Below, one piece after another: positions 2,546 to 9,405 of a DNA stretch of 64,000 nt. Position 1 is the stretch's first letter, and every line of letters begins with the position of its first letter. The DNA comes from Streptomyces sp. NBC_00448 (GTDB taxonomy: Bacteria > Actinomycetota > Actinomycetes > Streptomycetales > Streptomycetaceae). A program made the position numbers and the translations under genes. The notes beneath the pieces are model-generated. The model saw nothing but the letters and a program-made list of their open reading frames with translations, had not been told where the DNA came from and did no database searches. Where the stretch lies: assembly GCF_036014115.1 (NCBI RefSeq), contig NZ_CP107913.1:8735501-8799500 (forward strand), written 5' to 3'.

Positions 2546-3306
2546 GCGAGCGCGAGGCGGACGGGCACACCGGGAACGGGCACGACGTGGACCGGCGGGA
2601 CGCGAGGGGGTACGGGGTGGAGGCTCTCGGGGCCGACGGCGAGCGCACGGTGCGGGTGGTCGTCGCCGACGACCAGACCGCGATCCGCGAGGCGCTCGCG
2701 GTGGTGCTCGACCTGCAGCCGGGCCTGGAGGTCGTGGCCACGGCGCGGGACGGCGCGGAGGCCGTGGCGGCCGCGGACGAGCACGCCCCCGACGTGATCC
2801 TCATGGACCTCAACATGCCGCGGATGGACGGCGTCGAGGCCACCCGGCTGGTCACCGAGCGCTTTCCCGACGTCGCGGTGGTGGTGCTCACCACGCTGGC
2901 CGACGAGCAGTACATCCTCGCCGCGCTCGGTGCCGGGGCCCGCGGCTATCTGACCAAGGAGTCCGGCCGCCAGGACATCGCCCGCGCGGTGCGGGCCGCC
3001 GCGGCCGGGCAGGCCGTCCTCGACCCGGCGGTCCAGGAGCGGTTGCTCGCGGCCGCCGTCAAGAGCGCGGCCCCGGCCGAGGTGCCGATCGCCGGCCTCG
3101 CACCGGACCTCACGCCCAGGGAGGTCGAGGTGCTCACCCTCATCGGCGAGGGCCTGACCAACCGCGGTATCGCCGAACGCCTGGTGGTCAGCGAGGCCAC
3201 GGTGAAGACCCATATCAACAACCTCTTCGCGAAGGCGCATCTGCGCGACCGGGCGCACGCCGTGCAGTACGCGTTCATCCACGGGCTGGTGAAGGCCCGT
3301 GGATGA
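2542..3306 (+). CDS. NarL/LuxR-family response regulator
   Basis: DNA-binding partner of the preceding kinase, 254 residues from the GTG at 2542, which overlaps the kinase stop (GTGA). An unconserved charged N-terminal extension of roughly 30 residues precedes the receiver domain, so an internal GTG near 2617 is an alternative start. The receiver has the acidic pair in VVVADDQ, the phospho-acceptor Asp in VILMDLNMPRMDG, the Thr of LTT and the Lys of LTKES. The C-terminal LuxR HTH reads LTPREVEVLTLIGEG followed by NRGIAERLVVSEATVKTHI. Targets are not identifiable. Confidence 0.93.
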   Translation: MSEREADGHTGNGHDVDRRDARGYGVEALGADGERTVRVVVADDQTAIREALAVVLDLQPGLEVVATARDGAEAVAAADEHAPDVILMDLNMPRMDGVEATRLVTERFPDVAVVVLTTLADEQYILAALGAGARGYLTKESGRQDIARAVRAAAAGQAVLDPAVQERLLAAAVKSAAPAEVPIAGLAPDLTPREVEVLTLIGEGLTNRGIAERLVVSEATVKTHINNLFAKAHLRDRAHAVQYAFIHGLVKARG

Positions 3307-4216: not shown

Positions 4217-6841
4217 TCAGCTCGCGCTCACCGGTGCCATCGTGTCGACGACGTCCGGGTTGTCGGCCATCCACTTCTTCACTCCCGCCGTGGTCTGCCC
4301 CTGGCCCGCCGACTGGATGTCGGCCTCCAGGGAGGCGAGTTGCGGCTCGGTCATGTGGAAGTCCTTCATCCACGTGGTGACCTGCGGGAGCTTCTTCGCG
4401 CTGTTTTTGTTGGCGACGCTGTGGATCGAGTCGCCCTTGCCCCACAGGCCCTTGGGGTCGCCGAGCTTGGTCAGGTCGTACTTGCTGTAGGCCCAGTGCG
4501 GGGACCACAGGACGACGGCGACGGGCTTCTTCTGGTCGTAGTCGCGTTGGAGTTCGGCGAGCATGCCCGCGGTGGAGCTGGCGACGAGCTTGTACTCCTT
4601 GTCGAGCCCGTAGCCGGGGAGGACCTTGGAGCTGAGGATCTTCATCTCGCCGGCGCCCGGCTCGATGCCGATGATCTTGCCGCCGAACTCGGCCGACTTG
4701 CCCTTGAGGTCCGCCATCGTCTTGACGCCCTTGACGTACGAGGGCACGGAGACTTCGAGCGAGGTCTTGTCGTACCACGGGCCCAGGTCGTCCAGATGGC
4801 TGCCGTACTGCTTCATGTACGAGGCGTGCGTGGTCGGTAGCCAGGTGTCGGTCATGTAGTCGATGTTGCCGCTGGCGAGTCCGGTGTACGCGGCGCCCGG
4901 GTCGTAGGTGTTGACCGACGCCTTGTAGCCGCGCTCGTCGAGGACTTCCTTCCACAGGTTCGCCGAGGCGATCGACTCGTCCCAGTTGAAGTCGCCGATC
5001 TTCACCGACTGGCCCTTGCCGACGTTCGTGGCGGTGGCTCCGGCCACCGGTGCCATCTTGTCGACCACGCCGGGGTTGGCCTTCATCCACTTCTTGACGC
5101 CGTCGGCGGTCTTGCCCTGCCCGGCGGCCTGGATGTCGGCCTCCAGCGAGCTCAGCTGCTCCTCGGTCATGTGGAAGTTCTTCATCCACGTGCTGACCTG
5201 CGGGAGCTTCTTCGCGCTGTTCTTGTTCGCGATGTTGTGGATGGAGTCGCTCGCGCCCCACAGGCCCTTGGGGTCGCTGAGCTTGGTCAGGTCGTACTTG
5301 CTGTAGGCCCAGTGCGGGGACCACAGGACGACGGCGACGGGCTTCTTCTGGTCGTAGTCGCGTTGGAGTTCGGCGAGCATGCCGGCGGTGGAGCTGGCGA
5401 CGAGCTTGTACTCCTTGTCGAGCCCGTAGCCGGGGAGGACCTTGGAGCTGAGCAGTTTCATCTCGCCGGCACCGGGTTCGATGCCGATGATCTTGCCGCC
5501 GAACTCGGCCGACTTGCCCTTGAGGTCGGCCATGGTCTTGACGCCCTTGACGTAGGACGGGACCGAGACCTCGAGGGAGGTCTGGTCGTACCACTTGCCG
5601 AGGTCGGTGTAGCTGCTGCCGTACTGCTTCATGTACGAGGCGTGCGTGGTGGGCAGCCAGGCGTCGGTGAGGTAGTCGAAGTTGCCGCTGGCCAGTCCGG
5701 TGAAGGCGGCGCCGGGGTCGTAGGTGTTGACCTGGGCCTTGTAGCCGCGCTCGTCGAGGACTTCCTTCCAGAGGTTCGCCGAGGCGATCGACTCGTCCCA
5801 GTTGAAGGAGCCGATCTTCACCGACTGGCCCTTGCCGACGTTCGTGGACGCGGTCGGCGACGAGCTGCCGCCGTTGTCCGAGAACACCCCGATGCCGCCC
5901 GCGACCAGCGCGAGGATGACCACCGCGGACAGGCCGACGGCCGGGCGCGGCCGGTAGCGCAGCACCGAGAAGCCCTGCGTGGCGCTGCGGGCGCGCGCCA
6001 GGGCGCGGCGGCCCAGCGGCGACACCTGGTCGCCCAGGGCTCCGGTGATCCGGTCCAGGTAGATGGCGAGCACCACCACGGATATGCCGCCCTCGAAGCC
6101 GAGGCCGATGTTCACCTGGCTGATCGCGCCGAAGACGGTCGAGCCGAGGCCGTCCGCGCCGACCATGCCGCCGATGACGACCATGGACAGCGCCAGCATG
6201 ATGACCTGGTTGACGCCGGCCATGATGGTCGGCAGTGCCAGCGGCAACTGCACCCGCAGCAGGGTGCGGGACGGCGGTGTGCCGAACGCCTCCGCGGCCT
6301 CGACCAGTTCCGGGTCGACCTGCCGGATGCCCAGCTCGGTCATGCGCACGCCGACCGGCATCGCGAAGACGATGGTGGCGATGACGGCGGGCACCGTACC
6401 GAGGCTGAAGAAGATGATCGCCGGGATCAGGTAGACGAACGCCGGCAGCGTCTGCATGACGTCCAGCACCGGCCGGATCAGCACGCTCGCCGTGCGGCGC
6501 CGGGCGGCCCAGATGCCCAGCGGCACCGCGAGCGCCAGCGCGACCACCGCCGAGACGACCACCAGGGACAGCGACTCCATCGCCTCGTCCCACTGCGCGA
6601 CGGAGTCGATGAGCGCGAAGCCGACGAAGGCCAGGACGCCCGCGGTCAGCCCGCGCATCCACAGTGCGAGCACCGCGAGGATCGCGGCCATCAGCAGCGG
6701 CGACGGGCCGCCGAGCGCCCACTCCACGCCGTTGTACATGCCGTTGACGACATGGCTGATGAAGTTGAAGAGCCAGGACAGGTGGTGGGTGAGCCAGTGG
6801 ACGACGTCCTCGGCCCAGTCGCCGAAGTGGAGCCTAGGCAC
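4217..6841 (-). CDS. Osmoprotectant ABC permease fused to two tandem substrate-binding domains (OpuAB/ProW + 2 x OpuAC)
   Basis: Membrane and binding component of a glycine betaine/choline-type importer, 874 residues from a GTG at 6841 that overlaps the ATPase stop by eight bases. Residues 1-290 are the BPD_transp_1 permease with the EAA-like loop around EAAEAFGTPPSRTLL. A further helix at about 300-320 leads to two OpuAC-type domains at about 330-600 and 602-874. Each has a ligand-cage aromatic set (FNWDES, WLPTTHASY, WSPHWAY). The domains repeat with a period of exactly 816 bases and differ at only a few residues (for example GSFNW/GDFNW and SSYTDLGKW/SHLDDLGPW), implying recent duplication or gene conversion. 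Fusions to one domain are common in this family; two near-identical copies are unusual. Confidence 0.95.
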   Translation of the reverse strand: MPRLHFGDWAEDVVHWLTHHLSWLFNFISHVVNGMYNGVEWALGGPSPLLMAAILAVLALWMRGLTAGVLAFVGFALIDSVAQWDEAMESLSLVVVSAVVALALAVPLGIWAARRRTASVLIRPVLDVMQTLPAFVYLIPAIIFFSLGTVPAVIATIVFAMPVGVRMTELGIRQVDPELVEAAEAFGTPPSRTLLRVQLPLALPTIMAGVNQVIMLALSMVVIGGMVGADGLGSTVFGAISQVNIGLGFEGGISVVVLAIYLDRITGALGDQVSPLGRRALARARSATQGFSVLRYRPRPAVGLSAVVILALVAGGIGVFSDNGGSSSPTASTNVGKGQSVKIGSFNWDESIASANLWKEVLDERGYKAQVNTYDPGAAFTGLASGNFDYLTDAWLPTTHASYMKQYGSSYTDLGKWYDQTSLEVSVPSYVKGVKTMADLKGKSAEFGGKIIGIEPGAGEMKLLSSKVLPGYGLDKEYKLVASSTAGMLAELQRDYDQKKPVAVVLWSPHWAYSKYDLTKLSDPKGLWGASDSIHNIANKNSAKKLPQVSTWMKNFHMTEEQLSSLEADIQAAGQGKTADGVKKWMKANPGVVDKMAPVAGATATNVGKGQSVKIGDFNWDESIASANLWKEVLDERGYKASVNTYDPGAAYTGLASGNIDYMTDTWLPTTHASYMKQYGSHLDDLGPWYDKTSLEVSVPSYVKGVKTMADLKGKSAEFGGKIIGIEPGAGEMKILSSKVLPGYGLDKEYKLVASSTAGMLAELQRDYDQKKPVAVVLWSPHWAYSKYDLTKLGDPKGLWGKGDSIHSVANKNSAKKLPQVTTWMKDFHMTEPQLASLEADIQSAGQGQTTAGVKKWMADNPDVVDTMAPVSAS

Positions 6842-8195
6842 GGGTCGCCTCCTTGCCCTCGGCGTCGCCGCCGTCACCGTTGCCGCCGCCGTCAGGACCG
6901 CCCAGGCCGTCAGAGCCGCCCGGACCGCCCGGTCCACCGGGTCCGCCTGGATCGCCGCCGCTCGGGACGGCGTCGTCCAGCGTGGGGAAGTCGGGCAGGC
7001 GGTGGCTGCCGGTGTCCTCCAGGCCCTCGCCGAGCGCGGCGAGCAGCGTCACCCGGGGGATGACGCCGGTCAGCCGGCCGTTGTCGTCGAGCACCGCGAG
7101 CGGCAGTTTCGACTGCGAGGCGGGGGTGAGCAGTTCGGACAGCGGCGCGTCCGCGTGCGTGGTGACGCAGTCGGTGTCCATCAGGTCGCGCATGGTGCCC
7201 TCGGCCTTGCGCAGCGCCTCGGTGACACGCACCTCGGTGACGGTGCCGACCAGCTTGCGGCCGCGTTCGACGACGAAGGCGGCGGACGCCTGGTCGGTGC
7301 GCAGCGCGCGCATGGCGGCGCGCGGGCCGTCGTTGGGGCTCACCATCACCCGCGGCTCCTCCATGATCGAGGCCGCGGTCAGCACCCGGGAGCGGTCGAC
7401 GTCCTGCACGAAGCTGGCCACGTAGTCGTTGGCCGGGTCGGTGAGGATGTCCTCCGCGGTGCCGATCTGGACGATCCGGCCGTCGCGCATCACCGCGATC
7501 CGGTCGCCGAGCCGCATCGCCTCGTTGAGGTCGTGGGTGATGAAGACGATCGTCTTGCGCAGCCGCTGCTGGAGCTCCAGCAGCTGGTCCTGCATGTCGC
7601 GGCGGATCAGCGGGTCCAGCGCGGAGAAGGACTCGTCCATCAGCAGCAGGTCGGCGTCGGTGGCGAGCGCGCGGGCCAGGCCGACCCGCTGCTGCATGCC
7701 GCCGGACAGCTCGTCCGGCCAGGACTTCTCCCAGCCGTCCAGGCCGACCATCGACAGCGCCTCGGCCGCCTTCTCCTCGCGCTCCTTGGCCGGCCGGCCC
7801 TGGACCTCCAGGCCGTAGGCGGCGTTCTCCAGGACGCTGCGGTGCGGGAAGAGCGCGAAGTGCTGGAAGACCATGCTGATCTTGCGGGAGCGCAGGTCGC
7901 GCAGGGCCTTCGCGGACAGGCCCGTGAGGTCCTGGCCGTCGAACAGCACCCTGCCCGAGGTGGGCTCCAGCAGACCGTTCAGCATGCGCAGCAGCGTGGA
8001 CTTGCCCGAGCCGGACAGACCCATGACGACGAAGATCTCGCCCTGCTCCACATCGAAGGAGGCGTCGATCACCGCCGCGGTCGTCCCCTCCTCTCTCAGT
8101 TCCGCACGGTCGGCCCCCTCCTGAAGCCGACGAATGCCTTCCTTCGGCTTGCGGCCGAAGACCTTGAATACGTGCTCGATGACGAGCTGTGACAC
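6834..8195 (-). CDS. Osmoprotectant ABC transporter ATPase with CBS domains (ProV/OpuAA type)
   Basis: ATPase of the importer, 453 residues. Walker [11 protein letters not shown]-loop [11 protein letters not shown], signature LSGGMQQR, Walker [13 protein letters not shown] and switch His in FITHDLNEA are all present, so it should be active. A tandem CBS pair follows (about residues 270-400). In relatives such as OpuA that pair senses ionic strength or c-di-AMP. The C-terminus ends in a Gly/Pro/Asp-rich tail (from about residue 410). The GTG start at 8195 has GAAAGG six bases upstream. It is the first gene of a two-gene operon, preceded by a roughly 300-base structured leader. Confidence 0.96.
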
Positions 8196-8502: not shown

Positions 8503-9405
8503 TTAACGATCCTGTGGGGTCGCTGTGATCCGCTTCTCGAACCAGTGGTGGGCGTAGGGCTCGTCGTTGAACGCGGGCACCTCCTGGAAGCCGCAGGAGT
8601 GGTAGAGCCTGATCGCCGCGTCGAGGGTCCTGTTGGTGTCCAGCCGCAGCGCGGTGCGGCCGTCGGCGGCGGCCCGGGCCTCCAGTTCGGCGAGGAACCT
8701 GCGGCCGAGGCCGAGTCGGCGGGCGTCCGGCGCGACCCACATGCGCTTGATCTCGGCGGGGGCGCCGGCCGGCAGCTTCAGGCCGGCGCAGCCGACCGGC
8801 TCGCCGTACAGCCGGGCGATCAGGAAGACGCCGCGCGGCGGGCGCAGGTCGCCCGCGTCGGGCAGCAGGCTCGCCGCGGGGTCGAAGCCGCCCTCGAAGC
8901 GCTCGTCCATCTCGGCGAAGTACGCCCGCAGGCAGTGCTCGGCGTCGGGGTGCCCCGGCTCGACGGGCTCCAGGGTGACGGTCGCGGCGGTCAGCAGCCG
9001 CTCGACGTCGGCCATCGCCGCGGTCAGCCGGGCCCGCTGCGCGGGGTTGAGCGGCGCCAGGAGGGAGCCGGCCAGCTCGTCGCTGCGGTCGTCGAGCGCG
9101 GCCCGCTCGGCCCGGCCCGCGTCGGTGAGCCGTACGGTCCGCACCCGCCGGTCGCCGGGCGCCGGCTCCACGGTCACCAGGCCGTCGGCCTCCAGGGCGC
9201 GCAGCAGCCTGCTGACGTACCCGGAGTCGAGCCCGAGCCGGTCCCGCAGCCGGCGTACGTCCTGGCCCTGCTCGCCGATCTGCCACAGCAGCCGGGCCTC
9301 GCCCACGGGCCGGTCGCGGCCGAGGTAGCGGTCGTGGAGCACGCCCACGCGTTCGGTGACGGTGCGGTTGAACCGTCGCACCTGGTCGATCTGCGCCGTA
9401 TCCAT
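8503..9405 (-). CDS. MarR-family regulator fused to a GNAT acetyltransferase
   Basis: A 300-residue bifunctional-type protein. Residues 1-140 form a MarR winged helix (VRRLRDRLGLDSGYVSRLLRALE, wing EPAPGDRRVR). Residues 150-300 form a GNAT domain with the acetyl-CoA loop DARRLGLGRRFL and a typical C-terminal RLYHSCGFQEV. This fusion is a recurrent bacterial family, but its substrate is rarely known. The ATG at 9405 lies inside a perfect operator palindrome, which implies autoregulation and a leaderless or near-leaderless mRNA. Transcribed alone toward the transporter operon; a regulatory link to it is possible but not shown. Confidence 0.92.
   Translation of the reverse strand: MDTAQIDQVRRFNRTVTERVGVLHDRYLGRDRPVGEARLLWQIGEQGQDVRRLRDRLGLDSGYVSRLLRALEADGLVTVEPAPGDRRVRTVRLTDAGRAERAALDDRSDELAGSLLAPLNPAQRARLTAAMADVERLLTAATVTLEPVEPGHPDAEHCLRAYFAEMDERFEGGFDPAASLLPDAGDLRPPRGVFLIARLYGEPVGCAGLKLPAGAPAEIKRMWVAPDARRLGLGRRFLAELEARAAADGRTALRLDTNRTLDAAIRLYHSCGFQEVPAFNDEPYAHHWFEKRITATPQDR

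Follow-up and report, generated by a model that had tools for sequence, protein, structure and literature searches.

Homogenisation of one lobe between tandem substrate-binding domains in a subset of OpuA-type permeases

The window analysed here, a 64,000-nucleotide stretch of DNA from Streptomyces sp. NBC_00448, carries a transporter gene in which a substrate-binding domain (SBD) stands twice in tandem. The locus raises the question of whether the two copies are alike because they are young or because they have been kept homogeneous by gene conversion, and whether their relatives show the same behaviour. The gene encodes an OpuA-type permease of 874 aa with a GTG start, and a single open frame (4217-6841, minus strand) holds both SBD copies. 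Pfam analysis revealed BPD_transp_1 and two OpuAC stretches on this protein. The features to which we refer are the following:

4217-6841, minus strand: OpuA-type permease with two C-terminal SBDs (reading frame, Pfam and PDB fold matches)
6834-8195, minus strand: ABC ATPase of the ProV/OpuAA type with two CBS stretches, upstream of the permease (Pfam/NCBIfam)
5882-6841, minus strand: transmembrane domain (TMD) including the last helix before the SBDs, residues 1-320 (PF00528 at residues 105-269; model helices to residue 320)
5042-5848, minus strand: SBD1 (c1), residues 332-600 (PF04069, model)
5249-5578, minus strand: lobe II of SBD1, residues 422-531, between the mapped hinge points (hand-mapped hinges; model strands)
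5021-5041, minus strand: SBD1-SBD2 linker, residues 601-607 (model, of low confidence there)
4229-5032, minus strand: SBD2 (c2), residues 604-871 (PF04069, model)
4433-4762, minus strand: lobe II of SBD2, residues 694-803 (SBD1 mapping shifted by 272 residues)

Direct repeats spaced by 816 nt joined 4229-4528 to 5045-5344 (87%) and 4799-5031 to 5615-5847 (93%), and the 816-bp units 4217-5032 and 5033-5848 were 88.8% identical. The window lies within a one-contig assembly of 9,648,495 bases, in which both SBDs occur as separate PF04069 places. The repeat search, the single frame, Pfam and the assembly agree that the permease with tandem SBDs, as described in an earlier note on this DNA, is real. 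The same note spoke of few differences between the copies, located near LGKW/LGPW. This motif pair is indeed one of the differences and adjoins the lobe boundary, but "few" was an overstatement: 30 positions differ between c1 (residues 334-600) and c2 (residues 606-872), 26 in lobe I and 4 in lobe II.

We then assigned the importer to a class. The ATPase frame (6834-8195, minus strand) overlaps the permease frame by 8 bases, and the two genes probably form one operon. The ATPase scored 438.6 bits against the NCBIfam proV subfamily TIGR01186, above the cut-off of 326.6, and fell short of the cut-off of the ProV equivalog PRK10070 (404.7 vs 444). The curated cut-offs of the choline ABC transporter were not reached either, for the permease family TIGR03416 (313 vs 363) or the binding-protein family TIGR03414 (220.2 vs 379.05 bits). 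The best PDB fold matches of the predicted permease structure were 7ahd and 7ahh, both OpuA. The model had a mean pLDDT of 80.2 and a pTM of 0.50, so its relative domain placement is not to be trusted; residues 289-332 of the model were of low confidence. PF00528 and PF04069 thus occur in one chain next to a ProV-type ATPase with CBS domains, and the OpuAC ligand residues, three Trp and the carboxylate-binding His, are in place. The window system is therefore predicted to be an OpuA-type (glycine betaine/compatible solute) ABC importer.

For the ligand site, PMC2861598 gives W484, G437 and V438 of OpuAC, and we derived the positions of W330 and W377 from the alignment. The carboxylate-binding His is printed there as H392, while the His of WLPNTH falls at 382 in the alignment with the same offset as W484, G437 and V438; we assume a numbering slip in the paper. 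The mapped residues W, W, H, G and W do not differ between the two window copies, which gives no indication that the domains bind different ligands. Lactococcus lactis OpuA (7ahc/7ahd/7ahh, 3l6g/3l6h) shares the permease-SBD fusion, the fold, the ProV-type CBS ATPase and the mapped ligand residues, but has one SBD per chain, whereas the window permease has two in tandem. Tandem SBDs on one permease chain likewise occur in GlnPQ (6h30), a weak fold match at rank 11, whose SBDs belong to another family than OpuAC. The window SBDs are OpuAC domains that share all mapped ligand residues, so the system falls outside the GlnPQ class of amino-acid-type tandem SBDs; the GlnPQ pair is described in PMC8025302 as unlike in both the specificity and the affinity of ligand binding. 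The OpuAC of Bacillus subtilis (2b4l) belongs to the same family as the window SBDs and matched 5048-5863 of the window in two pieces in swapped order, so that it appears circularly permuted; trimming of a tandem-SBD ancestor would be a natural way to arrive at this, offered as an idea only. Elsewhere in the window, 8503-9405 (minus strand) encodes a one-protein regulator with MarR and GNAT acetyltransferase domains, and, close to the transporter, 1382-2542 and 2650-3303 (plus strand) encode a histidine kinase paired with a response regulator of the LuxR type.

To assess how common the tandem is, we searched at genus and family level. Among 35 genomes of the genus-level search, 28 gave a match at E 1e-30, with a full-length tandem match in five, and 250 of 394 genomes matched at E 1e-100 in the family-level search. 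Reading frames were then examined at 154 loci (L006-L159): 129 encode a TMD with two SBDs, 20 have one SBD and 5 are odd. The odd loci were set aside as partial (L031, L033) or as having no SBD match (L032, L034, L035). The last three, with frames of 661-712 aa, are distant paralogous permeases in which two transmembrane domains are fused in one frame, and L031 (G027), a frame of 419 aa whose TMD match is short at the N-terminus and whose SBD is partly missing, may be a decayed copy. Each of the 129 tandem loci comes from a separate genome, and further tandem matches lie in G173, G124, G342, G252 and others. At least 129 of the 394 family genomes thus carry the tandem, a lower bound because not all matches were taken. 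Most tandem loci lie within genus code g9, probably Streptomyces. In a separate set of 80 named loci, 39 were tandem, 27 were single and 14 had no SBD match at the threshold used.

On the lobe-I tree, 26 of the 29 c2s placed there formed one clade with one single SBD (27 rows, support 100/99), apart from their own c1s. Judged from this tree, the tandem layout is old in these 26 loci. Both SBDs of the window (genome G000) instead fell with G012 and G043 in a 17-row clade (100/99) that includes 11 rows of single SBDs. Since the window copies lie outside the old c2 clade, their duplication is either separate and younger, or old and completely re-homogenised. It is common to G012, with the same 272-residue spacing, and on the whole-SBD tree the c2 branch is longer than the c1 branch in both the window (0.11 vs 0.0085) and G012 (0.056 vs 0.0068). 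The earlier note had set a common, ancient second domain against its own reading; the tandem is indeed common and old in the subfamily, but the c2 of the window is not part of the old c2 clade.

We next compared the two copies within each tandem, taking lobe II as homogenised when c1 and c2 were at least 90% identical in protein. This was the case in 16 of the 129 tandems and not in 113. A windowed comparison of 29 loci revealed some with a central block near 100% protein identity and much lower flanks, and third-position identity was high in this block too; in L076, c1 and c2 ran for 371 nt without a mismatch. A tract scan found tracts in 48 of the 129 loci. Every tract lay inside codons 85-218 in 46 of these 48, and only the window gene and G012 had tracts reaching outside. 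All 129 c1s have His at the carboxylate-binding position, while c2 has Gln in 108 (Gln-type, the others being His-type). Tracts occurred in 28 of 108 Gln-type loci, as against 126 of 3000 c1/c2 draws from different Gln-type genomes, and tracts of at least 200 nt in 16 of 21 His-type loci, as against 39 of 420 different-genome pairs. Interspecies controls had tracts in 108 of 3000 pairs, also only in codons 81-220, so that the confinement is partly due to higher conservation there. Codons of about 147-177 were often near-identical between copies in tandems without long tracts and, less often, in interspecies controls. In the named set, only L180 (Streptomyces sp. SA15) had a tract longer than 200 nt.

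To follow the two lobes separately, we built segment trees of 78 SBDs. The whole-SBD protein tree proved misleading for homogenised loci because the two lobes have different histories, and was replaced. On the lobe-II tree, c1 pairs with the c2 of its own genome in many loci that are split on the lobe-I tree. Same-genome cherries were counted in 37 of the 129 tandem loci (21 His-type and 16 chosen others) together with 20 singles. Lobe II gave 13 such cherries, 9 of them with bootstrap of at least 95 and SH-aLRT of at least 80; the lesser ones were L077 (95/75), L068 (94/39), L043 (66/3) and L076, which has no value as its rows are identical. Lobe I gave only two, L006 (87/25) and L007 (100/94). 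Lobe II rejected a grouping of the 18 His-type c2s outside the window's type (p-AU 8.9e-5), and lobe I did not reject it (p 0.115). When only the c2s of 12 of the 16 homogenised loci, apparently one lineage, were held together, lobe I rejected this as well (p-AU 1.8e-8), probably because other His-type c2s lie among them.

Site patterns pointed the same way. Between L041 and L045, orthologue-type and species-type sites numbered 30/0 and 30/0 in the N-terminal part of lobe I, 0/8 and 0/9 in lobe II, and 23/1 and 36/0 towards the C end. Over 66 genome pairs from a set of 12 loci selected as homogenised, the pattern switched at codons 88-91 and 205-210. These comparisons indicate that, in a subset of tandems, lobe II has been repeatedly homogenised within single lineages, silent sites included, and that lobe I has stayed copy-specific. 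Most of the 16 loci bear the marks of gene conversion, namely within-genome copies closer than orthologues, an effect on silent sites and sharp borders, and the window gene bears them in part. We also asked whether the single SBDs could be lobe chimaeras that arose when a deletion joined identical lobe-II segments, and none of the 20 fitted this. Eighteen of the 20 were nearer c1 than c2 in both lobe-I parts and L020_S was nearly even; L028_S (G010) was c2-like in both lobe-I parts and probably reflects a loss of c1.

The borders of the homogenised segment were then set against the hinges of the domain. The hinge centres of L. lactis OpuAC are given as Lys404 and Ser508 in PMC2861598. Transferred manually through the 3l6g alignment, these centres fall at codons 97 and 206, or residues 422 and 531 of SBD1, and the window model has long strands at the hinge regions (411-428 and 532-539). 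A two-break fit to the 16 homogenised loci gave median borders at codons 92 and 209. As a descriptive count, 13 of 16 starts lay no more than 12 codons from the hinge at 97, and all 16 ends no more than 12 codons from that at 206. Twelve of these loci appear to be one lineage, not 12 independent border choices, on the basis of six of the 12 on the lobe-I tree and of the clade of 18 His-type c2s not being rejected. In 8 of the 12, lobe-II c1 and c2 pair by genome, which points to exchange continuing after the 12 had split.

Homogenisation also went with the residue at the carboxylate-binding position. Lobe II was homogenised in 15 of 21 His-type loci vs 1 of 108 Gln-type loci, the exception being G039 (L038). 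Fisher's test gave p 5.5e-14, a value that ignores relatedness and is not readable as a probability; the association is strong and comes from few lineages. In the named set, 34 of 39 c2s had Gln and 5 had His, and among these 5 only L180 had a tract longer than 100 nt.

One interpretation, which we put forward tentatively, is a concerted evolution of half-domains, in which selection would keep one lobe interchangeable while the other specialises, the hinges would serve as recombination borders, and the change of His to Gln in c2 would end homogenisation. A conversion process with a neutral divergence barrier may well give the same picture, though we stop short of calling it probable: lobe I would have become too different to recombine, and the hinge would have no functional meaning. 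Lobe I is merely 53-61% identical in protein in 14 of the 16 homogenised loci, and the youngest tandems, G000 and G012, have tracts beyond lobe II, as a barrier would predict. It sits less easily with the similar near-hinge borders of G043, G039 and the 12-locus group, which are placed as three separate lineages, and with the loss of high lobe-II identity in 107 of 108 Gln-type tandems.

The window pair itself was less clean. In codons 7-96, its c2 groups with the c2 of G012 (89/97, not starred), whereas codons 100-240 reject this grouping (p-AU 5.8e-8); 9 of the 20 single rows (L022-L030) were left out of this test. The first result suggests that the duplication probably predates the split of the two genomes, and the second that exchange followed it. 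Orthologue-type (O) and species-type (P) sites numbered O1/P7 and O0/P14 in lobe II and O7/P4 and O7/P3 in the N part. The best-fit homogenised segment of the window covers only codons 139-196, a second tract lies in lobe I (codons 7-43), and the tract of G012 extends over codons 21-264. The window c1 and c2 form no cherry in lobe II and a weak one in lobe I. Because its tracts and trees are less clean, limitation to one lobe is a trait of the older pairs and unproven for the window, which looks like an early stage of homogenisation. G033 (L008) groups in codons 100-240 with G012 (100/99) and not with G000, although by TMD G000 is closer to G012 (94.0%) than to G033 (89.6%). This grouping against the TMD makes exchange between species possible.

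A simple recent duplication would hold that the window SBDs are alike merely from youth, with no gene conversion. Its c1 and c2 lie on the whole-SBD tree in a 17-row clade with 11 single SBDs, and the lobe-II third-position identity of the window, matched by 6.75% of comparable interspecies pairs, is not exceptional for the overall divergence of the copies. We nevertheless regard this explanation as unlikely, for the c2 grouping of G000 and G012, the AU rejection and the site patterns need exchange after the split, and the old tandems would be left unexplained. The earlier note offered two options, a young duplication and one kept alike by gene conversion, and by the segment trees and AU test both seem to apply.

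Strong purifying selection could in principle keep lobe II identical without conversion, and lobe II is generally somewhat more conserved: interspecies medians for lobe II were 0.66-0.69 at 0.53-0.61, the lobe-I identities of the 14 older homogenised pairs. As a control for conservation we drew on 38374 interspecies pairs, matched by their lobe-I identity. Against this control, lobe-II third-position identity was reached by less than 1% of interspecies pairs in 21 of 129 loci, including 15 of the 16 homogenised ones. Silent and replacement changes were counted within 12 loci, 10 of them homogenised. Lobe II of these 10 proteins had 0-11 silent and 0-4 replacement changes (10 and 14 in L038), and lobe I of the 8 older homogenised proteins about 86-106 replacements. 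Codon permutation within pairs gave p 0.0003-0.002 in 9 homogenised loci, 0.44 in L049 and 0.18 in L009; L047, not homogenised, still gave 0.006. Purifying selection alone is thus very improbable, given that third positions are homogenised too, that changes specific to one genome are common to its c1 and c2, lobe II having almost no orthologue-type sites, and that c1/c2 silent divergence is lower in lobe II than in lobe I in the 8 older loci. In lobe I, dN/dS was higher for c1 than for c2 in 7 of 9 genome pairs and the reverse in the window pair and L077/L078; we make no claim of positive selection, since third positions have probably come close to saturation where old copies are compared. An assembly artefact is scarcely credible: draft assemblies hold several homogenised loci, but so do the one-contig genomes G000, G187, G336 and G339 and the genomes of two or three contigs G012, G039, G246 and G292.

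We therefore consider recurrent intragenic gene conversion, largely of one lobe and in the window pair also of lobe I, the likely explanation. This judgement includes the variant with a neutral barrier, and the likelihoods given for the several readings do not exclude one another. Homologous recombination between in-frame copies about 816 bp apart would do the copying. Tracts spilling into lobe I either could not form once lobe I had diverged or would be selected against, the latter since lobe I may have copy-specific roles, as the change of His to Gln at the carboxylate-binding position of c2 in most relatives suggests. Lobe II would then be a shared, exchangeable module for as long as the two domains have their ligand chemistry in common. 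A docking argument alone does not favour lobe II. In the window importer, the two SBDs probably bind the same betaine-like ligand and feed one translocation path, which would increase capture; a homodimer like OpuA would have four substrate-binding domains per importer.

That a transporter may have two or four binding sites is already a familiar idea, and we know of no lobe-limited conversion in earlier work on them. The open-licence literature, so far as its accessible text goes, yielded no paper on gene conversion between tandem SBDs. The architecture itself is common; what merits further study is the pattern of lobe-II homogenisation seen in some of the relatives. This pattern is a caution that a tree built from whole SBDs may blend two histories. 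It also amounts to a natural experiment on the freedom of each lobe of a substrate-binding domain to vary: should the hinge truly border the exchange, the genomes would show which half must stay common to both domains of one importer and which carries copy-specific function.
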